This document shows positions 49,389 through 63,492 of a stretch of DNA of 64,000 nt, one piece after another (within the stretch, counting starts at the first letter, position 1; each line of letters opens with the position of its first letter). Source of the stretch: Vulcanisaeta souniana JCM 11219 (GTDB lineage: Archaea; Thermoproteota; Thermoprotei; Thermoproteales; Thermocladiaceae); NCBI RefSeq assembly GCF_026000775.1, contig NZ_AP026830.1:1945056-2009055 (forward strand). Reading direction: 5' to 3'. The translations under genes were made by a program, and so were the position numbers. The notes under the pieces are model-generated. The model was not told where the DNA came from. It worked only from the letters and a program-made list of their open reading frames with translations, and made no database searches.

Positions 49389-50831
49389 CTATGGATAACC
49401 TGATGAGTAACTTGATGACTGACCTGTTGATGGCATAGTTGTACTCGTTAAATTCATAAAACCATGCACTGGAGCTACAAATATCCACGGAACTGGCTTA
49501 ACGAATACCACATTAACTATGTAATCGTTACCCACTAGCCATGGATCTGCAAAGGCGTAATTACCGCCGAGTAGTGTTCCATCGGGTAATTCTGCGTAGC
49601 CTAACCACGTCCATGACGCTGTTACCTTAGTCGGCGCCGTCATGCTACTTGGGTTGTAGAATGCTTGGGGTGGTAGGAAGGCGATGGTTACCACTGGGGT
49701 TGGTGAGCCTGAGGCATTTACAAAGGTATAACCTGGGCTTATTTGGTTATTTACCGCAAAGGCGTAGGAGAATATTGGCCAGTATATTGTGTTACTCTCA
49801 TTTAGGTAAGTTGGGTTATAAACCGCTTGGTACACTAGACTGAAGTTATATGTGTTGAGTATTTGTCCGCTTGAAGTCTTTACGTAGGTACCAGGTGGTA
49901 TTATGGCTAGTAGATTACCCACGGCAACTGCGCTTCCTTGTGTTGCATTCACGGTTACCGTACCTATACTAACCGGCGCTAACTCCGTCTCCATGGTGGT
50001 TATCTCAGTACTGTTTGGCGTGGTCTCGGAGGCGTAAACGGTCATTGGCATTGCAGGCATTCCGGTGTATACGAACACCCAGGGCACTGGCTTGACGAAT
50101 TGGTAGTTCACGAATATGCCAGAGCTAACATACACCCAATTATCCGGGAATGCATAACGGCCACCGATCAATGTGCCGTTTGACTCCTCGGTGAACCCAA
50201 GCCATGTCCAGGTGGTCCATGTGCTCGGCATCCTAACGACAGTTATTATTGCCTGCGGCTTACCCTCCTGGTTAACAAATGTGTATCCCGGTGATACTTG
50301 CCCATTAACGGCATAGGCAAAGGCATATATTGGTGGTGAGCCTCCCATGTTCATCTCCATGGGCGTTAGCCCAATGTTCTCAATCATGTAGTCGATTATT
50401 GAGAATTGATACGTATTGAGCACCTGCCCACCTGGTGTTTCCACGTACGTGCCCGGCCTAATTACGGCTATTATGTTGCCAAGCCTAACGGTAGCTCCTT
50501 GTGTTGCATTCACCATCACCGTAGCTTCACCGACCGGTATTAACTCCGGCTGCATCATACCTATACTTGAGTTAGACATACTCTCCAGTGATTGGTACTG
50601 GCCTTGTAGGCTCATGTACTGATTCTCAAGATTTGTATAGTTCGTCATTAAGCCTGAGTACTCACTCTCCAGGGTCTGATACTTACTCTGCAACTGCTGG
50701 TATTGGCTTTGAAGTGCCATGTACTTACTGGCTACTGACGCCGTGGTTGAGTATAGGTAACCCACGTATATTAGTCCCACTGCGAGTATTACCACCAGTA
50801 TTATTAGTCCTATTGTTTGATTGTTCATCAA
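49389..50831 (-). CDS. Surface-anchored protein with coiled coil and duplicated domain
   Basis: A 480-residue protein. An N-terminal membrane helix (TIGLIILVVILAVGLIYVGY) is followed by a Gln-rich coiled coil (about 30-92, 'YQQLQSKYQTLESEYS'), then two copies of a domain of about 180 residues. The copies start 'ATVMVNATQGATVRLGNIIA' (about 105) and 'GTVTVNATQGSAVAVGNLLA' (about 290), and share 'PGTYVxTxxGQxLNTYxFS', 'SPGYTFVN' and 'PDxWVxxxxxxVNxxFVKPV'. It ends Ser/Tyr-rich. The domain faces outside the cell. No known family; the stalk-plus-tandem-head layout fits a surface receptor, sheath or enzyme. It stands alone about 250 bp from the wHTH gene. Confidence 0.65.
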   Translation of the reverse strand: MMNNQTIGLIILVVILAVGLIYVGYLYSTTASVASKYMALQSQYQQLQSKYQTLESEYSGLMTNYTNLENQYMSLQGQYQSLESMSNSSIGMMQPELIPVGEATVMVNATQGATVRLGNIIAVIRPGTYVETPGGQVLNTYQFSIIDYMIENIGLTPMEMNMGGSPPIYAFAYAVNGQVSPGYTFVNQEGKPQAIITVVRMPSTWTTWTWLGFTEESNGTLIGGRYAFPDNWVYVSSGIFVNYQFVKPVPWVFVYTGMPAMPMTVYASETTPNSTEITTMETELAPVSIGTVTVNATQGSAVAVGNLLAIIPPGTYVKTSSGQILNTYNFSLVYQAVYNPTYLNESNTIYWPIFSYAFAVNNQISPGYTFVNASGSPTPVVTIAFLPPQAFYNPSSMTAPTKVTASWTWLGYAELPDGTLLGGNYAFADPWLVGNDYIVNVVFVKPVPWIFVAPVHGFMNLTSTTMPSTGQSSSYSSGYP

Positions 50832-51048: not shown

Positions 51049-52392
51049 CTAGACATAGCTCCTAACCCCCTTCATACCCGATGCGTTCTCAAGCATCTTC
51101 TTAGCCGTATAGTATCTCCTACAGTCTGGGCATAGATACAACCATTCAGGGTCACCCTTAATGCCAAGTCTAACCTTCGTAGCCATTATGTGCCTCCTGG
51201 TATCAAATGGCTTACCACATACCTTGCATGTAATCACCTTGTCATAAACAATATCTGCGCTACCACTTGTCGGAAATTCCTTAGCCCTATCAACTGCTAT
51301 TGCCTTCTCTGGGCATAGCCTTGAGCAATAACCACACCCAATGCACTTGAGGTTGTTGAATTTGAGCACGGTCTTATTACCAGCCCTATCAACATCGAAT
51401 GCCCTCTCGGGGCATTTAGCGAAGCATACACCACAGAATGAGCACTTGACATCATCAACATGCACACTAAATATCTTCAGTAATTCATTGGTAACGCCTG
51501 TAGCCTTTGATCTAAGTCTTGTTAATGCCTTAACATAGTCATTACGTCTAATGCCCATGTAAATAATTTCCTCACTTGGTGCCTTGTTACCATCCACTGA
51601 TAACGCACCATTCTCAGCGGCGCTGAGCTTGAACAATTCCATAAACGCATTGACTAAGTCCTTGACATAGTCAGCACCACCCAACTTACATGACTTATCA
51701 GGGCACTCAATACTTACCTCAAGGGACTTGACAAGCGCCATTGCCACCCATTCAGGTCCAACTGCATTAACACATGGCACTTTATAGATGTACTCGCCGT
51801 TCCTAGGTTCCCTGGTGTTTAATGGGCATGTGAATGTTACTTTCTTAATACTCTTCACGGTATTTAACTTATTAAGTAGGGCTACGTACTCATTATCGTC
51901 AGCGCCCACCATTGCCAGGGCACCTGTTGGGCATTTTGACACGCACAACCCACACTCAATGCATGTGCTCTCATTAATGGTGACTTTATTGTTGACTATG
52001 GATATAGCGTTTACTGGGCATGCATTAACGCATTCACTACAGCCAAACCTAGCCCTACATGCACTCTCGAGGTATGTGGGTACGTTCTTCTCGATAACCT
52101 TGGCAACCCTACCCATCAGTAGCTCCCTCCTACTGATGGGACCCTCGATGGCAACCTTCCTCATGCTCGTTCTCCTAGCCATTAACTGAGCCTTCAACGT
52201 CTCAAGCTCCTCTTCGCTTGGCGACTTAAGTATATAAATGCTCATTGGATGCTTACCCTGAATATCAACACTGTTCAATTTCCTGAGCACTATTATTACT
52301 GGGCCATCATGCTCTCTAGCCCTACTCAATTCCTCGTCATTTGGATCCTCAAGTATTAATAACCTGCCCTCCTCACTTACCACCATAGGCAT
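51049..52392 (-). CDS. Polyferredoxin, SreD-like
   Basis: A 447-residue protein with four ferredoxin-type motifs: 'CSECVNACPVNAISI' and 'CIECGLCVSKCPTGAL' (about 120-165), then 'CSFCGVCFAKCPERAF' and 'CIGCGYCSRLCPEKAI' (about 320-365). A C-terminal zinc-ribbon-like 'CKVCGKPF...CPDC' follows, and a middle region holds four more cysteines (TFTCPL, IECPDKSCK). Its start overlaps the TorD-type gene by 20 bp. Gene order matches the polyferredoxin of Acidianus sre operons, where its role is thought to be electron transfer or enzyme maturation. Confidence 0.75.
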   Translation of the reverse strand: MPMVVSEEGRLLILEDPNDEELSRAREHDGPVIIVLRKLNSVDIQGKHPMSIYILKSPSEEELETLKAQLMARRTSMRKVAIEGPISRRELLMGRVAKVIEKNVPTYLESACRARFGCSECVNACPVNAISIVNNKVTINESTCIECGLCVSKCPTGALAMVGADDNEYVALLNKLNTVKSIKKVTFTCPLNTREPRNGEYIYKVPCVNAVGPEWVAMALVKSLEVSIECPDKSCKLGGADYVKDLVNAFMELFKLSAAENGALSVDGNKAPSEEIIYMGIRRNDYVKALTRLRSKATGVTNELLKIFSVHVDDVKCSFCGVCFAKCPERAFDVDRAGNKTVLKFNNLKCIGCGYCSRLCPEKAIAVDRAKEFPTSGSADIVYDKVITCKVCGKPFDTRRHIMATKVRLGIKGDPEWLYLCPDCRRYYTAKKMLENASGMKGVRSYV

Positions 52393-53047
52393 CCCTCATA
52401 GCCTTAATGACCTCCTTGTCCTGAGCCACGAAATCCCTCGTAAAATTGAGCAGAAGTTTAAGGTAATCAGTCTTCACAAGCTTAAGTGATGTACTTACGA
52501 ATATCGAGACCCAATTAATTAGGTGATTATTTAGGAAGTAATCCTCTTCCTCAACATACTTAATGGCATTACTCCAGTCATCATACTCCTCATAAGCTAG
52601 GAAACTCATGAAGGCGAACTCAACGGCAATGTGATCACCCCTTAAATCCCTAAAGTCCTTATTCACGATAAGGTTATAATCCGCGTAAATTCTTTTAAGC
52701 GATATCTCGGTATTCATATCAAGATAACCCGTGTGGGTGTATCCCTCGTATGGTATTGCGCCATAGTCAATCCTTGTAAAATCCACTTGTATTGGTGTTA
52801 ATGCGTTGTAGTCATTAATACCTTTAGCAATATCAAGTAACTTAATTAGGTCATTCATTGATGAGTAAAGCCTTGCCAGGACCTTGGCGACACCCCTAAC
52901 CCTACTAATCCTCGATTTAATCAACTTCTCAAAATCATTAAGCCTATACGGGTATATGTAGGATGAGGCTAGGAAGTCATAAATAATAGAACGGGAAAAG
53001 GCAAGTGATTTTAAAGCCTGTGGATCTAAGTTCTCCATATTAATCAC
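52373..53047 (-). CDS. TorD-type molybdoenzyme chaperone, SreE-like
   Basis: A 224-residue all-helical protein with the TorD/DmsD layout: 'RSIIYDFLASSYIYPYRLNDF', 'PIQVDFTRIDYGAIPYEGYTHT' (the family's P-Y-E motif) and 'GDHIAVEFAFMSFLAYEEYD' (the D-H-x-x-x-E-x-x-F-M motif). It should bind the TAT signal of the catalytic subunit and hold it for cofactor loading. It overlaps the Fe-S gene by 4 bp. Confidence 0.85.
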   Translation of the reverse strand: MINMENLDPQALKSLAFSRSIIYDFLASSYIYPYRLNDFEKLIKSRISRVRGVAKVLARLYSSMNDLIKLLDIAKGINDYNALTPIQVDFTRIDYGAIPYEGYTHTGYLDMNTEISLKRIYADYNLIVNKDFRDLRGDHIAVEFAFMSFLAYEEYDDWSNAIKYVEEEDYFLNNHLINWVSIFVSTSLKLVKTDYLKLLLNFTRDFVAQDKEVIKAMRDAYGGK

Positions 53048-53835
53048 GTGCCTTGACCCTTAGCATTACCCACTCCACCACCACAGTGACCACCAGTTGG
53101 TTTAACGCCCTTCAGCTTCTGTAATAATGTCGGTAAATCAGCCGCGCCAGTTCTTAGGGCAAATTCCTCAGGTTCTTCTCCGGTTACTATCCTTGTCGAT
53201 TCGTTAGTCTGTACACCGGGCATTACATAAAGACTGGGTGGGTCTGTGCCGTACTCAGGACCCATTGGTACTGCGCCCTTTCTCATAGCTGTCCTGTAGA
53301 CTATGCTATTGGGATCATCCATGTCACCAAATACCCTAGCACCGGCCGGACAATTCCTAACGCAGGGTGGTACTCTCTCGTAAAGCGGTAATGACTCATC
53401 GTAAACTCTATCAATGGCCATGACACACTTCTTACTAACGCCCTCCACTGGGTCAAATATTATGTTGCCATATGGACATGCATTCTCACAGTACCTGCAG
53501 CCAATGCACACCTCGTAGTTAATAACGACCACACCATCCTCTCTCCTCTTATATATGGCCCCGGTTGGACATACTGTGACACATGCTGGATTCTTACATT
53601 GGAAACAGCTAATTGGTACACTAAATGTCTTAGTGTTTGGGAACTCACCAACCTCCACATGCAGTACCCTCATGAAGAATACCGACCATGGCGCCTTACC
53701 GGGTTCTGGACCCCATGGCTTCAGATCTGTCATTGGCCCATAACACCCACTGGAGTGCCACTCCTTGCAGGCCAGCATACATGCGTTGCATCCAAAGCAC
53801 TTACTCAGGTCTGTGAGTATGGCTAGCTGGACCAT
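53044..53835 (-). CDS. Molybdoenzyme Fe-S subunit (DmsB/PsrB/SreB type)
   Basis: A 263-residue protein with the sixteen-cysteine, four [4Fe-4S] cluster pattern: 'CFGCNACMLACKEWH', 'CFQCKNPACVTVCPTGAIYK', 'CIGCRYCENACPYGNIIF' and 'KCVMAIDRV...PPCVRNCPAGA'. It carries electrons between the membrane anchor and the molybdopterin subunit. A Gly-rich tail with 'GGHCGGGVG' is an extra Cys-containing end. It lies 5 bp after the catalytic gene. Confidence 0.92.
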   Translation of the reverse strand: MVQLAILTDLSKCFGCNACMLACKEWHSSGCYGPMTDLKPWGPEPGKAPWSVFFMRVLHVEVGEFPNTKTFSVPISCFQCKNPACVTVCPTGAIYKRREDGVVVINYEVCIGCRYCENACPYGNIIFDPVEGVSKKCVMAIDRVYDESLPLYERVPPCVRNCPAGARVFGDMDDPNSIVYRTAMRKGAVPMGPEYGTDPPSLYVMPGVQTNESTRIVTGEEPEEFALRTGAADLPTLLQKLKGVKPTGGHCGGGVGNAKGQGT

Positions 53836-53840
53836 TCAGG

Positions 53841-56800
53841 TCACCCCTGCCCGTTCTTCTTACTCTTTGGATCCGTACCTGGATTTGAATTAGGTGGTGG
53901 CATTGTGGCGTTGGAGAATGAGTAGCCCATTGAGTGCCTAATGGTTTCTTGGAATTGAAGCCATTGAGTGTTCTGTTCATACCAGGATAATCCCATCTCC
54001 TGCGGCGTCTTGTAGGCATTATAGTTGAAGACATTTATGTTCCAAGCCTCACTACCAACGATTAGTTTCGGTGGTGTCTTAACTATTGGATCTGCATTAC
54101 CCCATGCTGAGTATGGCTGGTCATTAGCTATCCTAACTACCTTAACCCTTAAATCACCCCAAGCAGTCTTGCCACTAAATATGTCGAATTGAAGTGTTGG
54201 ATATTGTCCGCTTTGTACCGCATTTATTAAACCCTGTACTGTATAGTCTGAGTTAGGTACACCACCCTGGCTTTGAGCCCTTGTGTATACGTATATGTCA
54301 TTAAACATAAAGCCCTTAGTAACCTCCAGGGCATTAGGCGGTAATGCCATCATACCGGCTCTGGCATTCCTTGACTTCCAATAACCAACAACACCTGGTG
54401 CCACAGCTTCCGTTAACTTAACCTGGCCTCTAGCTATCTCGCCGCCTCTACTGGTTAATTCAACCCAATCACCATCCTTAATACCATACTGAGCCGCAGT
54501 TTGTGGATTCATCCAAATCACCGAATATGGTATAATCTGCCTAAGCCATGGGTGGTGATTCTCCCACGTGTGGTAGAACCACGGCGTAGTCTTCCTATTA
54601 ATCGTGGCCAGTGGGTACTCACTTGGTGGTGAACCATCTGGTGCTATCCAGTCCAGTGGTTCGTACCATACGGCTATTGGGTGGTAGAACTGCTTAATTA
54701 TTTGGGCCACATGGCTGCCCCACCAATCACTTGGTGGCGATGCGTTCTTCTGGGCCAGCTGTAGATACGACTGGTCGCCAGTCTTCTGGTACATGTAGTA
54801 GAAGTATGCGTTCATGCCCTTCCACAGGCCGTAGGCTGCCAGTATGAACTTCATTATTATCTCTGAGTATATCGGTATAATCACTGGCTTTGCGTATGGC
54901 ATCATACTAACGCTTGCAGCCCACTCCAGATAGCCTTGGTTCACGTGCCTGTAATACCTAATCTCAAGTGGTAATTCGTAGTAGGCGAAGGCATGTCCAA
55001 CTGTCTGAGTACCTGGTGAAACACCTAGCGGATAAACACCATTGGTAACTGGTATCTGCTGTGGAGCTGGGTACGTATTACTATTTGAGTATGCGGCTGC
55101 ATTTATGAAGCCTGGATAAACGTACATCTTAATCTGATTCGGGTTAGGATCTCCCTTACAACATGATGCTCCATCCGCACCCCTAGCCATGTAAAGCACA
55201 CCAATACCTGGAGCAAACTGCCACTTCCACAACCAATCATACATTAGATTAGGATACATTGGTTCTCCAGTATTTGTAACGAAGCCAGGTAACTGAAGCT
55301 TCTCACCGAGTAAAATCTCACCATCACTCCACGGCCTAACTTCCTTAAAGAGCGGCGGTAGTATAGGCCACTCGATATTGTCCGCAGGACCGTGCACCGA
55401 TGACACTGGCCTATCTAGTAGACTGTGCTCACCATATCTCTCAAAGAATGTGGTGTCAGGTATAACTAAGTCTACACAGGGCACTGAACCGCCATAGAAC
55501 GTATCAACCTGAGCCACGAAGGGTATCCTATACCTACCATCAGTATCCTTCATAGTGAGCAGGCCTAGGTCCTTATCAATATCGTAGGCATTATCCCAAT
55601 ACTCATTGGTTATATGCCATAGCAGAAACTCTACTCTGTACGGCCACTCAAGCCCAGCATCAATATTAACAGCGGTATAAACCCTATGAACAGATAATGG
55701 AAACTCCCAACTAAAGCCCCTCTCTATGAGCAATGGATGACCATTTTCATCAATTACCATATTATCCGGCGTATATACTATAGGCTTTGTCGTTATTTGC
55801 AAAGCCTTTGAATATGGAACCTTCTCAACACTTAATACCTGAACAGTACCATCGTTAAGTATTCTCTCCTGAATCATCGTACCACCAACTACACCTATAA
55901 GTTGCTCGCCATTGGGTCCAGTGTATAGGCTTGGATTAGAGTTGTAATCGTCCTGTGTAATATTCATCCTTGGATCAGCTGGCGTAATATATGCTGGCCA
56001 GTAATCGCCGTCAGGTACTGGCCACGGTGCTGGCGGCTTATATGTAAATCCACCAGGTGTATCTATCGCCCCAACTAAGGCGAATAGAAGGGCAAAGGCT
56101 CTTGCTGTGACAAAGCCATTACTATGTGCCGAAATGCCTCTCATTATGTATGCTGAGAATGGTGTGCCTATGAAATAATCATGCTGCCTACCTAGGTAGT
56201 CAGTCCACTTGGCTTGTATAACGACCCTACCATTATTGAGCAAATTAACTATCTTCTGAGCAAGCTCCCTAATTTTGTAAGCTGGTGGTGTTTTCCAGGT
56301 CGCCTCAACATTCTCTGGACTCCATTGATCTTGCAGCGCAATTTCCTTTAGTATACTGAAGACAGTTCTAACATTTAGAGTTACTGTCTGGTCACTATCA
56401 GGAGCGATTGGTATTGTTATTGATCCCTGCCACTCAAGGACGGGTTCAACACCGTTTTGCCACGGTATGTCAGTAAATGGGTAAATATTACCATCGCTAC
56501 CCATAATTATTGGTACCCAATCACCATTCTTATTCTTCATCCTAGCGAAAAGCCCAACATTAGATGCTTGTGGTGGTATTATCGAACCGTCTGGATTTGT
56601 TATGACAAGCCAGGGCGCGTTTGTATACCACTTTAAGTAATCCTCATCCATTGAGTGTATACCCTGCTCCCTCATTTCAAATAGTTCATGTATTACTGAC
56701 CAAATCACCATGCCATCAGTACCGGGTATCACGGGTATCCACTCATTGGCAACTTGGGCGAAGTTGCCGATTCTCTCCGGCGACATCCATATTATCTCAC

Positions 56801-57623
56801 CACCATTGGTTATCACCTTCATAACCTCACGTCTCGTTATTGTTGGAAAATGATCCTGCGTCATACCAGCGATAATCAATAACTTCGTGTAATTGCTGTC
56901 CCAACCACCGTACTCCCACCAGGTGCCACCCATGGCATAAGAACCACCTGACGCCACGGCCGTTGCACAGAAACCACCGTGAGCTGCTTGGTTCGGTGTA
57001 CCGAACATCGCAGCAAACCACGTGTTCTCGGTTGGATTGTATTGATCCCTACCTGTGAAGTATACGAACTTATATGGGCAGCACTCCCTAATTTGCTTAA
57101 GACCTAGGAACCCATATTTCCAGCCTCTTTCCTGTAAATAAGATGAATTATCTCCATTTGCAAGTATGTCTAGCAGATCATCGTATGTAATTTCCACGAA
57201 GTTACCCTCACACCTCTCGCTAGTGGGTACCCTAAGCAATGGCGACCTTAGCCTTGCTGGGCTTAGGTAGTGGAGCATAGTTGTTGCGCCTATATCACAG
57301 GTGGCACCCTGGTTCCTAGTGAATATTGAACCCGTTATGAACCTAGGTAGTTTAGTCGTTCCACTTATTACAACCTCAACATTGCATCTACCTAGGCATC
57401 CGTAGCATGTCGTGAACGCAACAACGTCGCTCGTTACCTCCTCAGGAGCCAACTTACTCTCCTTAAATATCTGACCAAAAACAAATGCTTCCCTACCCAC
57501 AGTACCTAGGAATGCCACTGCTGCAGCCGTTACACCGGCGATCTTTAGGAAATCCCTTCTTGTTATTAATAGGCCCTTCTTAGTCTCCTCATGGGTAAGC
57601 TTTGTGGTGGTTTCCATGCCCAT
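53841..57623 (-). CDS. Molybdopterin oxidoreductase catalytic subunit (SreA/PsrA/TtrA-like), TAT-exported
   Basis: About 1260 residues. The twin-arginine signal is 'TRRDFLKIAGVTAAAVAFLG' (Arg22-Arg23). The N-terminal [4Fe-4S] site is CYGCLGRC plus a later Cys in 'GATCDIG' (Cys73, 76, 80, 109). The Mo-ligand region reads 'TPNQAAHGGFCATAVASGG', giving a cysteine ligand as in Psr/Phs/Ttr enzymes. The C-terminal MGD-binding domain includes 'TAAQYGIKDGDWVELTSRGG' and 'EAVAPGVVGYWKSRNA'. Its length is at the upper end, nearer tetrathionate reductases. Gene order favours sulfur/polysulfide reductase (Sre). The ATG at 57623 overlaps the anchor gene's stop (TGATG), so I prefer it to an in-frame ATG at 57644. 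Confidence 0.87.
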   Translation of the reverse strand: MGMETTTKLTHEETKKGLLITRRDFLKIAGVTAAAVAFLGTVGREAFVFGQIFKESKLAPEEVTSDVVAFTTCYGCLGRCNVEVVISGTTKLPRFITGSIFTRNQGATCDIGATTMLHYLSPARLRSPLLRVPTSERCEGNFVEITYDDLLDILANGDNSSYLQERGWKYGFLGLKQIRECCPYKFVYFTGRDQYNPTENTWFAAMFGTPNQAAHGGFCATAVASGGSYAMGGTWWEYGGWDSNYTKLLIIAGMTQDHFPTITRREVMKVITNGGEIIWMSPERIGNFAQVANEWIPVIPGTDGMVIWSVIHELFEMREQGIHSMDEDYLKWYTNAPWLVITNPDGSIIPPQASNVGLFARMKNKNGDWVPIIMGSDGNIYPFTDIPWQNGVEPVLEWQGSITIPIAPDSDQTVTLNVRTVFSILKEIALQDQWSPENVEATWKTPPAYKIRELAQKIVNLLNNGRVVIQAKWTDYLGRQHDYFIGTPFSAYIMRGISAHSNGFVTARAFALLFALVGAIDTPGGFTYKPPAPWPVPDGDYWPAYITPADPRMNITQDDYNSNPSLYTGPNGEQLIGVVGGTMIQERILNDGTVQVLSVEKVPYSKALQITTKPIVYTPDNMVIDENGHPLLIERGFSWEFPLSVHRVYTAVNIDAGLEWPYRVEFLLWHITNEYWDNAYDIDKDLGLLTMKDTDGRYRIPFVAQVDTFYGGSVPCVDLVIPDTTFFERYGEHSLLDRPVSSVHGPADNIEWPILPPLFKEVRPWSDGEILLGEKLQLPGFVTNTGEPMYPNLMYDWLWKWQFAPGIGVLYMARGADGASCCKGDPNPNQIKMYVYPGFINAAAYSNSNTYPAPQQIPVTNGVYPLGVSPGTQTVGHAFAYYELPLEIRYYRHVNQGYLEWAASVSMMPYAKPVIIPIYSEIIMKFILAAYGLWKGMNAYFYYMYQKTGDQSYLQLAQKNASPPSDWWGSHVAQIIKQFYHPIAVWYEPLDWIAPDGSPPSEYPLATINRKTTPWFYHTWENHHPWLRQIIPYSVIWMNPQTAAQYGIKDGDWVELTSRGGEIARGQVKLTEAVAPGVVGYWKSRNARAGMMALPPNALEVTKGFMFNDIYVYTRAQSQGGVPNSDYTVQGLINAVQSGQYPTLQFDIFSGKTAWGDLRVKVVRIANDQPYSAWGNADPIVKTPPKLIVGSEAWNINVFNYNAYKTPQEMGLSWYEQNTQWLQFQETIRHSMGYSFSNATMPPPNSNPGTDPKSKKNGQG

Positions 57624-58672
57624 CACCCCCACCATGGACCCCATTGTGGTTGTGTGTTATAGAATGGTGTTATTGGTGTATGGAAATAGGCCGTGGCTAT
57701 GACTACATACCTCAGCGTATAACCACCAACTATAACTGCAACAAATATTATTGCTATCATTACGGCCGCAGTGCGGTTTAACGGATTAACCCTCAATAGT
57801 GCTATTTCAAGTAATAATGGTATTGCTATACCTATGGAAATAACCACACCCCAAAACATCGGTGCATATGCGCCGAATAAAAGCTCGTAGAGATCCAGCC
57901 CAGCTAGGTAGTGATTCGCCATGGCCACGGCTATGAATAACGCCCAACCAAATCCTTCAAAAATCTCCGCAAGTAGGTCCAGCCAACTTAATTCATGCAG
58001 TACATGAGCTAATTCACTTGTGCCTCCATCAGCCTTCACAGGTACTGCCGTTGTTACAGACTTCTCGAAGAATCTGGTAACCAGCAGTGAAAATGCGGAG
58101 CCATAGGCAAGGCCTGATGATAGCCATAGCAGGGGCAGTACGCCATTCCACCAGTAGGACTTGCCACCAGCTGCTGCGAATAGGAATGCTGTGTATACCG
58201 TAGCCGCTATACCCGTGAGCATTATTAAGTAGTCAAGGACTATCTGCGTGGGCCTAATATACTTACCCAGCACAGCCCTCGCCAGTGATGGTATGTAGGT
58301 TATTGCCAGGTATATTATGCCCCAAATAACCATACCACTTAGGAACAACACACCCCAATCCATCCAGGACTGAGCAAGTCTACCATTTGGATAGCCAATG
58401 AAAATTATGTTACCAGCCCTATCCGGCCTTCCAAGATCTATTACGAAGAAGGCCAAGGCACCCAATATAAATATCCAACCAGCCGTCATATTTATCTTAA
58501 CCATCCTACTAACCTTACCCCTAACATTATAAACAGCGGCTAGCAACATTGTCATGCTACCGAGCGCCGTTAGGAAAACCGCAGCCGCAATTCTCCAACC
58601 CCATATCAAGTGATAACCAGGCGGCATGTATGGACCCCAGCCTGTCCAGCTAACCGGCCAAGGTGATGACAT
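57623..58672 (-). CDS. NrfD/PsrC-type membrane anchor (SreC-like)
   Basis: A 349-residue protein with eight to nine helices: 'GWRIAAAVFLTALGSMTMLLAA', 'GWIFILGALAFFVIDLGRPDRA' (typical NrfD 'DLGRP'), 'WGVLFLSGMVIWGIIYLAI' and 'LLAEIFEGFGWALFIAVAMANHYLAGLD'. It should bind menaquinone and pass electrons to the Fe-S subunit on the cell exterior. It is the first gene of the operon, with two TATA-like repeats 24-58 bp upstream. Confidence 0.88.
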   Translation of the reverse strand: MSSPWPVSWTGWGPYMPPGYHLIWGWRIAAAVFLTALGSMTMLLAAVYNVRGKVSRMVKINMTAGWIFILGALAFFVIDLGRPDRAGNIIFIGYPNGRLAQSWMDWGVLFLSGMVIWGIIYLAITYIPSLARAVLGKYIRPTQIVLDYLIMLTGIAATVYTAFLFAAAGGKSYWWNGVLPLLWLSSGLAYGSAFSLLVTRFFEKSVTTAVPVKADGGTSELAHVLHELSWLDLLAEIFEGFGWALFIAVAMANHYLAGLDLYELLFGAYAPMFWGVVISIGIAIPLLLEIALLRVNPLNRTAAVMIAIIFVAVIVGGYTLRYVVIATAYFHTPITPFYNTQPQWGPWWG

Positions 58673-58695
58673 CAGGTAATGCCTAGTTACGTGTT

Positions 58696-58731
58696 GGATA
58701 TAAACGGTGCTTTCTCACTTGATATAAACAG
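58696..58731 (-). promoter_or_regulatory. Duplicated TATA-like elements before the sre-type operon
   Basis: The nonamer GATATAAAC occurs at 58697-58705 and again at 58721-58729, 24 bp apart, on the plus strand (GTTTATATC on the transcribed side). The nearer copy is correctly placed as TATA box for the anchor gene. The farther copy could be a second promoter or an operator half. Confidence 0.45.
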
Positions 58732-58756
58732 CCGTAGTTATGCCCGTGCTTAAGAA

Positions 58757-59548
58757 TTACTTATTTTCATATAAGTGAAAAATTTTGAGTAAATTGCCCT
58801 TGTTCATTATGGACGTGAGCACTGGGCAGTTTAAACGTAATGCGTAACCATTGATCCTGCACTTAATGGCTACCGGCCTTACGACAGGCTTTCCCGCACT
58901 CTCCTCTATTAGTAATGCGGCCTTACACCCGTCATTTAGGGTAACCACTGGTAGTAATTCAAGTAGTGCCTTGGCGATTACCCTCTCGGCTTTCCTAACG
59001 AGCTCCAGGGGTACGTTTAAGGTCTCCGCAATTACTTGGTCTAGGGACTTCGTGCCTATCCTTAGATTGTCAGGGAGCAGAACTAGGGCAGTCCTACTTA
59101 AGTTGCTGGCGCAGAAATCCTCAATCTTCCTACCCAGCCTAATCAATCCCTTAATTAACAATGAGATGTATTCCTTAACTTCATCGTCACTGAAATCCTC
59201 TAATTCCCAATCTTCTTTCAATTTCATAATTGCATACTTAAAAGCGACTTCGTTAATTTTGATAGCGCCAGTTAAATAAGCGACCGATAGCAGAAGGGCG
59301 CCTCTAGCCGTAACCACGTACTGCCCCTTATTAACCTTCTCAACAAAACCCATTGATAGAAGTTCTAACATCTTTCTATAAATTGACGCTATGCTTAACC
59401 CAGTTACCTTGGATAAGTACGTTAATGACAATGTATTGATACCTTTTTGCATTAAGGCTAATTGAAACATCGAGACGATGAGAGTTTCAAGAATAAGTAT
59501 ATGAATTGAATCTAGCGAATCTTCCCTAACTAATAAATGAGGCATCAT
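58757..59548 (-). CDS. Winged-helix regulator with three-Cys C-terminal signature, copy 1
   Basis: A 263-residue protein. An N-terminal helix pair precedes a winged helix at about 38-80 (YLSKVTGLSIASIYRKMLELLSMGFVEK) with wing 'KGQYVVTARG'. A middle helical domain (LKEDWELEDFSDDEVKEYISLL) follows, then a C-terminal region with 'AERVIAKALLELLP', 'LNDGCKAALLI', 'AIKCRINGYALRLNCPVL'. It has about 35-40% visible identity with the next gene, with the three cysteines conserved. It lies between the sre-type operon and its paralogue. It could sense redox state, metals or sulfur species; no named family recognised. Confidence 0.75.
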   Translation of the reverse strand: MMPHLLVREDSLDSIHILILETLIVSMFQLALMQKGINTLSLTYLSKVTGLSIASIYRKMLELLSMGFVEKVNKGQYVVTARGALLLSVAYLTGAIKINEVAFKYAIMKLKEDWELEDFSDDEVKEYISLLIKGLIRLGRKIEDFCASNLSRTALVLLPDNLRIGTKSLDQVIAETLNVPLELVRKAERVIAKALLELLPVVTLNDGCKAALLIEESAGKPVVRPVAIKCRINGYALRLNCPVLTSIMNKGNLLKIFHLYENK

Positions 59549-59607
59549 TATTAATAATTTTAAATCATGATTTAGTATTAAAGTGTTTTGGGAGTATGCT
59601 AAGATTC

Positions 59608-60357
59608 TTACTCGTTAAATGCCTTATGAATTAATGATAAGGCTACAGGGCAGTCACTATTAAGCGAATAGCCCCTAATCCTACATTTAATGGCGAGTAT
59701 TACCGGCGAGGCCCTAATCGACTGGTCCCCAGCCAATACAACCACTGCCCTGCAACCATCCCTTAAACGGACACTTGGTAGGTAATCAAGTAGTGCCTTG
59801 GCGATTACCCTCTCGGCTTGTCTCACCTCATCGACACTCACACCCAGGTAATCAGCTATTGAGTGAATTAGGGAGATCCTACCGTTATTAATGCCGTCAG
59901 GTAATACGTAATAAACAGACTTACCAAGCAAATTAACATTGACGTTTAATGGCGAGAGACCCAACTTACTAAATCCTTTATATAGTAATTTTAAGTAACT
60001 AATTACCTCATTACGATCAAATTCCTCAAGGTCCCAATCTTCCCTCAACTTATCAATGGCCAACTCAAAGACATCCTTATTTATGGAACCCCCATTACTT
60101 AGGTACATCATTGCAAGTAGTAACACGCCCTTAGTGGTTATTACGTAATGACCCTTACTAACCCGCTCTATCAAGCCAAGATTCATCAGGTCAAGAGCCT
60201 TCCTATATGCCGTAGCTATACTCATACCCGTACTCATCGAAACATAGTAAAGAGAATCCAAATTCCTGCTACAACGCCTTACCTTACCCTTAATGAGATG
60301 AAGAAGGAGTGCCTGAAGTATTAGTATGTGGTAATTATCTAGGTAGTAAATACTCAT
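59608..60357 (-). CDS. Winged-helix regulator with three-Cys C-terminal signature, copy 2
   Basis: A 249-residue paralogue of the preceding gene: winged helix 'MSTGMSIATAYRKALDLMNLGLIERV', 'KGHYVITTKGVLLLAMMYLS', 'LREDWDLEEFDRNEVISYLK', then 'AERVIAKALLDYLP', 'LRDGCRAVVVL' and 'AIKCRIRGYSLNSDCPVA'. It has extra Cys near residue 28 (RRCSRN). It is the first gene on its strand after the A+T-rich region upstream of doxD, and a tandem duplication best explains the pair. I infer it controls dox and/or sre genes. Confidence 0.75.
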   Translation of the reverse strand: MSIYYLDNYHILILQALLLHLIKGKVRRCSRNLDSLYYVSMSTGMSIATAYRKALDLMNLGLIERVSKGHYVITTKGVLLLAMMYLSNGGSINKDVFELAIDKLREDWDLEEFDRNEVISYLKLLYKGFSKLGLSPLNVNVNLLGKSVYYVLPDGINNGRISLIHSIADYLGVSVDEVRQAERVIAKALLDYLPSVRLRDGCRAVVVLAGDQSIRASPVILAIKCRIRGYSLNSDCPVALSLIHKAFNE

Positions 60358-60507
60358 ATTAAATCACCTAGAAAATAACATAAATGTACTATTTTTAACC
60401 TTTATTGTCAAAAAAATGACACTACAAACGTAGAAAACATGCAAAAGTGAATGCTGGAATCTAGAGCAGAAAGTGTAACTTTTCGATAAGTTAATAATTT
60501 ATGATTT

Positions 60508-60565
60508 ATGGAAAAACATGCATTAATATAGTAATAAATTTGTTTAAATACTCATGGTTTTTCAT
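60508..60565. promoter_or_regulatory. Inverted repeat in the regulator-doxD intergenic region
   Basis: ATGGAAAAACATG (60508-60520) and CATGGTTTTTCAT (60553-60565) form a 13-bp inverted repeat with 11 matches, separated by 32 bp containing TTTAAATA. The repeat lies in a 298-bp, very A+T-rich divergent promoter region. It is a good candidate operator for the adjacent regulators. Confidence 0.45.
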
Positions 60566-60655
60566 GATATCTTATACAATGTATATTTTCATTTTTCTCA
60601 GTATCTAGAAACTAATCCTTAATAGAACAATATCTTTGCGGTATTCTCGATAAAT

Positions 60656-61204
60656 ATGACAGAAATAGTCAAATATATGGAAAAGACTGTGGAGGTATCT
60701 AGTGTTGAGAGGTTCTTGCCTATACTGAGGGTTACGTTGGGTTGGATGTACTTCTCTGCGTTCCTGAGGAGAACTGTTAATGTGCCTGCAAAGCTTAACC
60801 CATCATCCACTGCGTATGTTGGTGGTAAGTTGATAACGTTCTTGCCACATGCGTGGCAACCTGTTGTTGGGCAGCTTGAGTGGGTATTGCTACATCCGCA
60901 CCTGCTTTACATATTCCTACTCTTCTTCACGGCTGTCGAGGGGATATTTGGCTTATTAATGATTCTTGGCTTCATGACGAGGCTCTCCGGGCTCGTAATA
61001 ACCATACTAGCCTGGAGCATTGGGGCTGCTGGTGGTTGGTTGGGGCCAACGTGTGTTGATGAGTGGCAGATCGCGGCTGTTGAGGGTGCTGCCGCGTTGA
61101 TGTTCATGTTTACAGGTAGTAGGTGGTTATCAATTGATCAGTACCTGGCTAAGAAGTATCCAAGGGGCTTAAGGATATGGAGTGTGTACGTACCACTATG
61201 GTGA
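60656..61204 (+). CDS. doxD: Thiosulfate:quinone oxidoreductase large subunit (DoxD)
   Basis: A 182-residue membrane protein with four helices in DoxD order: '[20 protein letters not shown]', then after an external loop '[26 protein letters not shown]', '[21 protein letters not shown]' and '[18 protein letters not shown]'. 'GPTCVDEWQ' carries the conserved external Cys. With DoxA it oxidises thiosulfate to tetrathionate and reduces caldariella- or menaquinone. It is divergent from the regulator pair. Confidence 0.88.
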
Positions 61205-61208
61205 GGTG

Positions 61209-61721
61209 ATGAGTATGGATAGGACAACTGCACTTGCACTGTTGGGCTTCATAATCGCCACTGGAGTAACGATGGGTCTATACCAAATAAACTTTCAGGG
61301 ATTCACCCACCTAACCAACTACTCAAAGACGCCTGCCTACTCACTGGCTGGTACTCAATTACTTGAGAATGGTACATTAATACTACACATCACTAGGGTG
61401 GCGGGTCCGGACACATACGGTGGATTCATAGTACTCGTACAGGTACTTTACCCAAATGGTACCATAGCTTATGAATGGAACTCAACATACTTAGGTCACA
61501 TACCCCAATACGACATTATAAACGAGTACGACCTGCCAGGGCATTTAGTGCACTCCGACGGCTTCGCCCTCGTGGTACCACTGGGCCAGTCTGCCATTGT
61601 TAAGTTATACGCACCAACAACATTCAGCCCAGGCACCTACATTGTCAGAGTTTACGATGTTGACGGGCAATACGAGGCGTACGGAATTAAGTTCCAGATA
61701 TACGTAACAGTCGGTGGGTAA
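61209..61721 (+). CDS. doxA: Thiosulfate:quinone oxidoreductase small subunit (DoxA)
   Basis: About 170 residues: one N-terminal membrane helix (ALALLGFIIATGVTMGLYQI), then an extracellular beta-sandwich with 'LILHITRVAGPDTYGGFIVL', 'DGFALVVPLGQSAIVKLYAP' and 'GTYIVRVYDVDGQYEAYG', as in DoxA. A GAGGTG element directly before the ATG at 61209 and the 4-bp gap after doxD support this start over an in-frame one at 61182. The two genes are one operon; in Acidianus the same pair forms the enzyme. Confidence 0.87.
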   Translation: MSMDRTTALALLGFIIATGVTMGLYQINFQGFTHLTNYSKTPAYSLAGTQLLENGTLILHITRVAGPDTYGGFIVLVQVLYPNGTIAYEWNSTYLGHIPQYDIINEYDLPGHLVHSDGFALVVPLGQSAIVKLYAPTTFSPGTYIVRVYDVDGQYEAYGIKFQIYVTVGG

Positions 61722-61807: not shown

Positions 61808-62233
61808 CTACTTAACTCCAATTACCTCCCTAACCTCATCAATCAACGGCCTTATGTACTTAACCCTCCTCTCAACCTCATCAATCTTGATCCTAACCTC
61901 GTGGAACCCGTTAACGTGTAAGAAGTAGGCCTCAGCCCATGCCCTCTCCGCCACATCGCCTAGTTTCGAAGCCGCATCATCGAGTAGGCTCACGGTCCAT
62001 CTGCCCCTTTCCAGGGCTTCCCTCGCCTCATCGAGGTTCTTGGCAATGGCTAATGCCTTGATGGCCTCCTCCACAGCCTTATAAAGCCTCCCACTGGCCT
62101 GAACCACATCACCCTTATCAACGAAACCCAAGCCCTCATTAAACATGGCCAAGGCCAACTCGGCATGAGCCTTAGCGGTGTCTGAGGGGTCTAGGTTGAG
62201 CTTTGCGGCTAGTACATCTATTATTGTAGTCAA
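61808..62233 (-). CDS. PaREP1 family protein
   Basis: A 141-residue, all-helical protein with the PaREP1 pattern: 'DTAKAHAELALAMFNEGLGFV', 'DVVQASGRLYKAVEEAIKALA', 'EALERGRWTVSLLDDAASKLG' and 'RAWAEAYFLHVNGFHE'. This family is expanded in Thermoproteales and has a HEPN-like helical bundle. HEPN proteins are often toxins or RNases, but the R-x4-6-H catalytic motif is not evident here. It is adjacent to an IS605-type element, with a nucleotidyltransferase-like gene on the other side. Confidence 0.8.
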   Translation of the reverse strand: MTTIIDVLAAKLNLDPSDTAKAHAELALAMFNEGLGFVDKGDVVQASGRLYKAVEEAIKALAIAKNLDEAREALERGRWTVSLLDDAASKLGDVAERAWAEAYFLHVNGFHEVRIKIDEVERRVKYIRPLIDEVREVIGVK

Positions 62234-62317: not shown

Positions 62318-63492
62318 TCATTGTTCATTGCGGGGGCGTTTAGGGGTGACCCGAGCACCTCCCACATACGCGTGCAGTGCCCTTAGCCAAATGTTTGTTG
62401 CGCCAACTACGTCTCTATCGCCTATGAATCCGCATCTTAGGCAGTATGCTAGTCTGTGAATGTAGTTAAGTCTCGCCCCGCACATTGGGCAGACGTTAGA
62501 CGTGTCCCTGGGATCCACGAATACCACCGGCACATTGTACTCAACGGCCTTGGCTATGACTGCATGTTGAAGTCTCCTATAGGCGAATAGCGTTAGCTTC
62601 CACCTAACGCCACCATCTTTCTTATTAATCGAATCCCTCAAAGCTCTAAATCCTCCAGGACAATCGCATGCCTAAGCCTCAGCGCCTTTAGGACTATTTC
62701 CTTCGCCACCTTCCAGCAGAAGTCATTAATGATGTTCCTAGCACTCCCATGCAGTGCCCTAACCCTATTCAGAATCCTCCTATTGAATTTCCACCTCCTT
62801 GGGTACTTCCTCTGAAGCTCCTCAGCCCTAGCCCTCTTACTCAAAGCCTCGATGAACCTAGTCCCGAACCTCCTAACCTCAGAGCCATTGAATGTTGTAA
62901 TGTTCCTAAGGTTTACATCTATGGCTACGAATCCTTTAGGTGTATATGGCTGATACCTTAATTCAAACACTACGCTAACGTAGAGCTTCCTATTCTCGTA
63001 CTTTACGTGAACCTCCTTCCACCTCAATCCCTTAAACTTTCCAATATATTCTCTTCCGTGTTTGAGCTTCAGCACATACCATTTATCTCTCAGAATTATC
63101 TTTACGGTTCCTTTATCCATCTCCGCCCTGGCATCCTGATAGTCGAACCTAGCTGATAGCCTTCTAACCCTTGGCTTACCACCACCATTGCTTCTGGCTG
63201 ATTTAACCAGAGCCAGTGCGTATTGGTAGATGTTCCTAGTGACATGAGCCCTAAAGCCGTACTTCCTCAGCATTAGGTAAAACATTTGATGGAGTTGGCT
63301 CCTCCTTGGTAGTTCATCCAAGTCCCACAGGGCGTCAATCACCTTTTGTAGTGCATGCCTATGAATGGCTAAATCCCACAGCAAGTCATTAATACTTCCT
63401 TCGGCAACTTCAACCTCAGCCCTCAACGCCTTGTAGTACCTCCCCTCGGGCATCCGCCACGCGCGGCGGATAAACACCCCCATCGGGCTCAC
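62318..63492 (-). pseudogene. tnpB: IS200/IS605-type TnpB split by one frameshift
   Basis: Two minus-strand frames overlap at 62638-62641. The first (to 62638) holds RuvC-I Asp192 in 'GFVAIDVNLRNITTF' and ends at RuvC-II 'IVLEDL' (Glu280). The second begins 'LRDSINKK' and has the zinc finger CPMC...CLRC and RuvC-III Asp in 'GDRDVVGATNIW'. All three catalytic acids survive, so a single shift near 62640 is the only visible lesion. The combined length of about 390 residues is normal for archaeal TnpB. No tnpA is present. A second Met at position 14 of the first frame may be the true start. Confidence 0.85.

Follow-up and report, generated by a model that had tools for sequence, protein, structure and literature searches.

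A conserved sulfur island of Vulcanisaeta souniana pairs a SoeA-lineage molybdoenzyme operon with a DoxDA2-type gene pair around cysteine-triad regulators

Which enzymes are encoded by the sre and dox genes that stand back to back in the genome of Vulcanisaeta souniana, and do they belong together? The locus lies in a 64,000-nucleotide (nt) stretch (G000:C1:1945056-2009055; hereafter the window) of the 2,432,148-bp genome. An earlier note had described a five-gene molybdoenzyme operon divergent from doxD-doxA with two paralogous regulators between them, and had read the locus as a combined sulfur island. All nine genes it named were found in place with strong Pfam support (9/9). The minus strand (58672-51049) carries sreC-sreA-sreB-sreE-sreD, with regB and regA upstream on the same strand, and doxD-doxA lie on the plus strand (Table 1). 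Neighbouring gene ends overlap or almost abut inside each of the two operons. The two regulators are indeed paralogues, with 45% identity. A conserved complex iron-sulfur molybdoenzyme (CISM)-type enzyme, doxDA and regulators thus remain of the proposed island, while the label "Sre-type" in the Acidianus sense had to be dropped, as that grouping was rejected by tree topology tests.

In maximum-likelihood trees, the window SreA forms one clade with a ~1440-aa type from Sulfolobaceae and bacterial SoeA (ultrafast bootstrap/SH-aLRT 100/99; SH-aLRT 100 in a second tree), apart from TtrA and from canonical SreA. In these trees the SoeA references are named by operon and xsc context and not by assay, TtrA is represented by two proteins from archaea (428 and 484 bits with NF011567, the TtrA model), and Allochromatium SoeA, Aquifex SreA and the SreA of Acidianus ambivalens itself are not included. 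Approximately unbiased (AU) tests ruled out the placement of window-type SreA in the canonical SreA clade (p 3.6e-5), as well as the joining of the window and ~1440-aa types to canonical SreA (p 2.4e-9) or to TtrA (p 9e-4). NF011567 likewise speaks against TtrA identity: the window SreA reaches 69 bits with it, where archaeal TtrA reach 428-484 bits and the cut-off is 1750. Tetrathionate reduction, put forward earlier as a real alternative, therefore finds no phylogenetic support. The SoeA lineage is still a sulfur clade. Canonical SreA was found in no Thermoproteales genome examined.

The best bacterial matches of the window SreA are plasmid-borne enzymes with 30-33% identity over 85-90% of the length. 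Their genes form A-B-C operons whose anchor is DmsC-type, and one of these operons adjoins xsc of a sulfonate pathway; this is the setting expected of SoeABC. The HGGFC motif, whose cysteine (C226 in the window SreA) is the probable molybdenum (Mo) ligand, is common only to the window type, the ~1440-aa type and SoeA; the iron-sulfur (Fe-S) motif CYGCLGRC is found at C80-C87. The window SreB shares 41-45% identity with SoeB versus 33% with canonical SreB. The window SreC anchor departs from this SoeA/SoeB pattern, as it is NrfD-type and shows no significant BLAST similarity to SoeC. A twin-arginine translocation (TAT) signal is present in the window SreA but not in the bacterial SoeA examined. 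Canonical-type SreC was recognised by a fingerprint of 22 positions, taken from the published residues of A. ambivalens SreC D1866_07880 (PMC8076601). The fingerprint is matched at 19/22 positions at offset 0 in a 456-aa SreC (L195) and at 14/22 in three others, compared with 6 in the best other open reading frame, and all matching SreC proteins (431-456 aa) are encoded in A-B-C-D-E-order operons with a ~1040-aa SreA. It was not found in the window-type SreC of L099, L184 and L186, all of which were scanned; the window SreC has 349 aa.

In a published survey, archaeal SreA was placed with PsrA/PhsA and Aquifex SreA with SoeA, in a lineage named bSreA/SoeA that held five archaeal members only (PMC10100899). 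The archaeal branches found here enlarge this picture. Populations of Thermoproteales are reported to have molybdopterin genes that group neither with ArrA nor with SreA/PsrA (PMC3654217); these may be of the same family as the window SreA. The sister of the window SreA in this lineage, a TAT-exported enzyme of ~1420-1460 aa, is intact in ~21 of the 31 Sulfolobaceae genomes (L100, L101, L103-L108 and others), usually with a Cys-triad regulator nearby. The gene of the sulfite-oxidising enzyme of Sulfolobaceae has been reported as unknown (PMC11323534), and this enzyme is a candidate for it.

The dox pair is likewise of another type than assumed. With the NCBIfam equivalogs NF041179/NF041178 (cut-offs 300), the window DoxD and DoxA score 124 and 37 bits, while canonical Sulfolobaceae paralogues score 336-340 bits (DoxD) and 324 bits (DoxA). 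Identity with the purified thiosulfate:quinone oxidoreductase (TQO; DoxDA1), the characterised A. ambivalens enzyme, was ruled out because both scores are under the cut-off. In the DoxD tree, the window protein is one of 16 sequences that form a clade (100/100) distinct from the canonical one, and the seven Thermoproteales sequences are nested inside Sulfolobaceae, beside G407 (97/97). The label DoxD2 for this clade is based on ~40% identity to DoxD1 and on the taxa (PMC8551704). DoxD2/DoxA2 are described as ~40% similar to DoxDA, with their function listed as unclear (PMC8551704). Both types have the motifs WLGxTCxDEWQI (DoxD) and NxSKxP and GPDxY (DoxA) in common, so a similar chemistry of DoxDA2 and DoxDA1 seems likely from these motifs. 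Between the two orders, DoxD shares 73-75% identity and SreA 54-57%, and within Vulcanisaeta DoxD evolves no slower than SreA. The dox transfer therefore most likely occurred after the molybdoenzyme split, and the Thermoproteales island most likely acquired dox from Sulfolobaceae at this later time.

All Thermoproteus-like (g7) genomes with a complete locus have one regulator and then sreC-A-B-E-D, with no dox, and the same order occurs in the Caldivirga-like G005 and G003, the latter pieced together from two contigs. In Vulcanisaeta, a dox pair comes in addition, beyond the regulator as seen from sre; G000, G015, G025 and G022 have two regulators and G024 has one. In Caldivirga G005, doxDA is on a different contig from sre. 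No close DoxD was found in other genomes of the order, where two distant DoxD-like matches occur in genus g4. A regulator-dox-sre order had been suggested as something to look for in other Thermoproteales; with dox it holds within Vulcanisaeta, and Thermoproteus and Caldivirga retain regulator-sre without adjacent dox. Window-type SreA, 54-57% identical to that of the window, is present in 3 of 31 Sulfolobaceae genomes (G336, G409 and G407), and all three carry a DoxDA2-type pair. In G336, sreDEBAC diverges from a small gene behind which doxD-doxA follow; by inspection, its 216-aa product has a winged helix-turn-helix (wHTH) and a C-terminal Cys-triad pattern like the window regulators, although neither BLAST nor Pfam gave a match for it. 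In G409, doxDA and sreCABED are separated by a regA-like regulator (27%) and a gene for a U32 peptidase, and in G407 the dox pair is ~16 kb from sre on the same contig. The trio of operon, Cys-triad regulator and doxDA2 is thus seen in Vulcanisaeta and in two Sulfolobaceae, G336 and G409. Because the linkage is kept in all Vulcanisaeta assemblies spanning the site and recurs in Sulfolobaceae, it is real and beyond chance. Of the two outcomes that the earlier note had named as refuting it, a catalytic subunit in a non-sulfur clade and an unconserved neighbourhood, neither was observed. No report of a sre-dox pairing was found in the open-access literature.

A wHTH, together with a Cys triad near the C-terminus of the pattern GC[KR]...C[KR]..G...L...C (with minor variation), is common to all fully read sre-linked regulators and to those next to the ~1440-aa operons of Sulfolobaceae. 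The regulator is anciently part of the molybdoenzyme operon, being present without dox in Thermoproteus and Caldivirga. The palindrome TGTCA-N6-TGACA lies upstream of the regulator in 6 of 6 dox-adjacent Vulcanisaeta loci (G025 has one mismatch), within DNA that has otherwise diverged. Caldivirga G005, where no dox is adjacent, has TGTCATATTTTTGACT, with one mismatch, 35 nt before its single regulator, and the palindrome is therefore a site of the regulator promoter and probably older than dox. A tighter pattern occurs once in the V. souniana genome. Two matches were obtained in 55 of 100 shuffled windows when one mismatch was allowed, so the palindrome by itself is not improbable and its weight comes from conservation. 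In Thermoproteus and Sulfolobaceae loci, no palindrome within one mismatch was found upstream of the regulators. The regB of G025 is split into two frames (L041:13296-14079); regA may therefore be the essential copy and the second regulator dispensable. A structural model of the regulator (pLDDT 82.5) gave no significant match against the PDB (best E 2e-3, TM ~0.25). Orphan regulator paralogues adjoin amino-acid permease or cobyrinate-type genes, neighbours that give no functional clue.

Our favoured reading, held at a little under even confidence, is that the island combines an anoxic, extracytoplasmic sulfur/thiosulfate reductase with a micro-oxic TQO under one regulator family; we infer the substrates, the direction, and the sensing and binding by the regulators. 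The molybdoenzyme would be a TAT-exported, extracytoplasmic member of the SoeA lineage, in which electrons would pass from quinol through the NrfD anchor and the Fe-S subunit to the Mo subunit, most likely to reduce elemental sulfur/polysulfide or thiosulfate under anoxia. DoxD2-DoxA2 would form a TQO-like pair that most likely makes tetrathionate from thiosulfate when a trace of O2 is present and cytochrome bd can withdraw electrons from the quinone pool. Through the Cys triad, the regulators probably respond to sulfane sulfur or to redox state, and they probably bind the palindrome at the regA promoter, so that the two modules would be used as alternatives. By their redox potentials, the oxidation of thiosulfate to tetrathionate cannot drive sulfur reduction via one quinone pool, and it is because such coupling is forbidden that we take the modules as alternatives.

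Physiology lends support to both halves. V. distributa depends on sulfur or thiosulfate for an acceptor, and grows weakly at 1% O2 with thiosulfate in place of sulfur (PMC3035369). The other MopB enzymes recovered by searches in the V. souniana genome are a NarG (1720 bits) and a formate dehydrogenase. A reductase role of the molybdoenzyme is supported because there is no canonical SreA besides these, yet V. distributa needs sulfur or thiosulfate. Its reductive direction is suggested by its presence in anaerobic sulfur (S0) respirers; the orthologue in Thermoproteus tenax, an anaerobic, S0-respiring archaeon, is the TAT-exported SreA1 (PMC3189178). The oxidative role of the dox pair is supported by the retained TCxDEWQI motif of DoxD, by two cytochrome bd loci in the V. 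souniana genome and by the weak growth of V. distributa at 1% O2. Joint control is supported because the palindrome is conserved amid diverged intergenic DNA and also in Caldivirga. The proposal that the two activities are controlled as alternatives is thus plausible, and gains from the shared regulator, the conserved palindrome and physiology; the closed thiosulfate/tetrathionate cycle proposed alongside it is not supported.

Several observations weigh against our favoured reading. The SoeA lineage includes sulfite oxidases, and the lineage alone could equally allow oxidative running of the molybdoenzyme. V. souniana has a Dsr pathway that could explain some sulfur respiration (PMC9872577). 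The molybdoenzyme operon occurs without adjacent dox in Thermoproteus and Caldivirga, so dox is not needed for it. The palindrome is 48 nt from the regA start versus 234 nt from doxD, so its control of dox is at most possible; for sreC, a separate promoter element seems to be present. A bolder version is possible but doubtful. In it, an extracytoplasmic branch that archaea have of the sulfite dehydrogenase lineage has turned into a sulfur/thiosulfate reductase with the orphan DoxDA2 as its regular partner, both under a new family of sulfur-sensing Cys-triad regulators, and Thermoproteales and Sulfolobales each put the pairing together on their own.

The molybdoenzyme might instead run as an extracytoplasmic, SoeABC-like sulfite:quinone oxidoreductase in the same oxidative sense as DoxDA2, the two supplying the quinone pool with electrons taken from sulfite and thiosulfate. 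The grouping of its catalytic and Fe-S subunits with SoeA/SoeB points this way, as do the nearest bacterial genes, which lie in an ABC operon, one beside the sulfite-releasing xsc pathway. We nevertheless consider this unlikely: SoeA is cytoplasmic and the bacterial SoeA examined here have no TAT signal, whereas the window SreA is exported; the anchor is NrfD-type instead of DmsC-type; and the operon is kept, with no dox, in Thermoproteus and similar anaerobes that respire S0. Slightly less probable again is that the two operons are adjacent only because a transferred doxDA2 inserted beside an unrelated operon, with no joint function. Such an event would fit the nesting of Thermoproteales DoxD2 in Sulfolobaceae (97/97) while the molybdoenzyme looks vertical in Thermoproteales, the separate dox and sre of Caldivirga G005, and the doxDA2 pairs that stand alone in several Sulfolobaceae genomes. 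It sits poorly with the three-part grouping, regulator between, that is also present in G336 and G409, with doxDA2 in 3 of 3 Sulfolobaceae having window-type SreA, and with a pairing that persists through Vulcanisaeta divergence to 75-81% DoxD identity.

Two further explanations have little to recommend them. A tetrathionate reductase that forms a thiosulfate/tetrathionate cycle across the membrane with DoxDA is improbable; DoxDA-type enzymes do produce tetrathionate and the catalytic subunit is large, as in archaeal TtrA (1150-1170 aa), but the window SreA is outside the TtrA clade by both the AU test and NF011567, and both enzymes on one quinone pool would make a futile loop. Marginally less probable than that is a mere juxtaposition of a canonical archaeal SreABCDE and a canonical TQO. 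The five functions are the same as in the A. ambivalens operon, the T. tenax orthologues are annotated sreA1-E, and the dox genes match the Pfam DoxD and DoxA families; against this, the gene order, SreC type and SreA clade all differ, and DoxDA is under both equivalog cut-offs.

Among the closest known systems, T. tenax sreA1B1C1DE (TTX_0045-0049; G041, taken as T. tenax) is orthologous by synteny, with 76% SreA identity and one upstream regulator. It differs in having no doxDA and one regulator only. This operon was published as a sulfur reductase by gene composition, and does not fall in the clade of A. ambivalens SreA. What is annotated as sulfur reductase in Thermoproteales thus belongs to another lineage than the assayed Acidianus enzyme, and function transfer by name is therefore unsafe. 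Bacterial SoeABC resembles the window system in SoeA being the sister group of the archaeal catalytic subunits and sharing HGGFC, but SoeA has ~950-1000 aa without TAT, and the operon has a DmsC-type anchor and no chaperone-polyferredoxin pair. A. ambivalens SreABCDE has five matching functions, including chaperone and polyferredoxin genes, and a TAT-exported A subunit, but differs in its order A-B-C-D-E, its SreC of 431-456 aa from another NrfD group, and its ~1040-aa SreA outside the SoeA lineage. Sulfolobales DoxD2/DoxA2, which in Sulfolobaceae often stand alone, are in the same clade as the window pair (100/100) and share 67-75% DoxD identity with it. The A. ambivalens TQO shares Pfam families and TCxDEWQI with it, and the window DoxD is ~39-44% identical to canonical Sulfolobaceae DoxD. 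The conserved regulator and operon partner provide a testable context in cultured type strains for DoxD2/DoxA2, whose function a review on sulfur metabolism in Sulfolobales lists as open (PMC8551704).

In Vulcanisaeta G018, regA (at about codon 20) is fused to sreA (at about codon 1227), at L042:9301-9500. The deletion of ~6.3 kb, corresponding to window ~53,966-60,298, has removed sreC, most of sreA, the regulators and the sre operon's own promoter region; sreB, sreE and sreD (80-98% identical) and doxDA are still open. This loss, seen in one genome, must be recent, or else a culture or assembly artefact. As a natural knockout, it makes a comparison possible without genetics. In G028, of the same order (genus g6; L055:8705-10190), an N-terminal piece of a window-type sreA is joined to sreD with stops present, a decayed operon.

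Table 1. Features of the sre-dox island, with positions in the window
Feature	Position	Strand	Evidence
sreD, polyferredoxin, 447 aa	51049-52392	-	Pfam; last operon gene in Thermoproteus, Caldivirga, Vulcanisaeta and three Sulfolobaceae
sreE, TorD/NarJ-type maturation chaperone, 224 aa	52373-53047	-	PF02613, E 2e-11
sreB, 4[4Fe-4S] electron-transfer subunit, 263 aa	53044-53835	-	Pfam
sreA, Mo/W-bis(pyranopterin guanine dinucleotide) catalytic subunit, 1267 aa, TAT signal, SoeA lineage	53841-57644	-	Pfam and trees
sreC, NrfD-type quinone-binding membrane anchor, 349 aa	57623-58672	-	PF03916, E 2e-26
regB, wHTH regulator, C-terminal Cys triad, 263 aa, sre-proximal paralogue	58757-59548	-	
regA, wHTH regulator, Cys triad C202/C225/C236, 249 aa, dox-proximal paralogue	59608-60357	-	
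TGTCA-N6-TGACA palindrome, probable regA (possibly dox) operator	60406-60421	.	Conservation
doxD2, DoxD-family membrane subunit, 182 aa, TCxDEWQI motif	60656-61204	+	PF04173, E 1e-56
doxA2, DoxA-family subunit, 179 aa, start overlapping doxD	61182-61721	+	PF07680, E 3e-40

Other genes were noted around the island and elsewhere in the genome. A 480-aa protein (49389-50831) with an N-terminal membrane helix, a probable coiled coil and two halves that resemble each other (44%) is kept downstream of sreD in Vulcanisaeta G015 and G018, and in G020 close to the truncated locus. A PaREP1-family gene adjoins doxDA in the window (61808-62233) and in Caldivirga G005 (L044:9205-9690), whose dox is not near sre. 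Beside the island, a TnpB-like gene (OrfB_IS605/TNB domain; 62318-63492) is broken into two overlapping frames. The NarG of V. souniana (L112:3798-7370, at ~C1:1,872,800) scores 1720 bits against a curated cut-off of 1084; V. distributa reportedly does not use nitrate. An XPB-type helicase containing a Pfam intein-splicing domain is encoded at 12220-14913.

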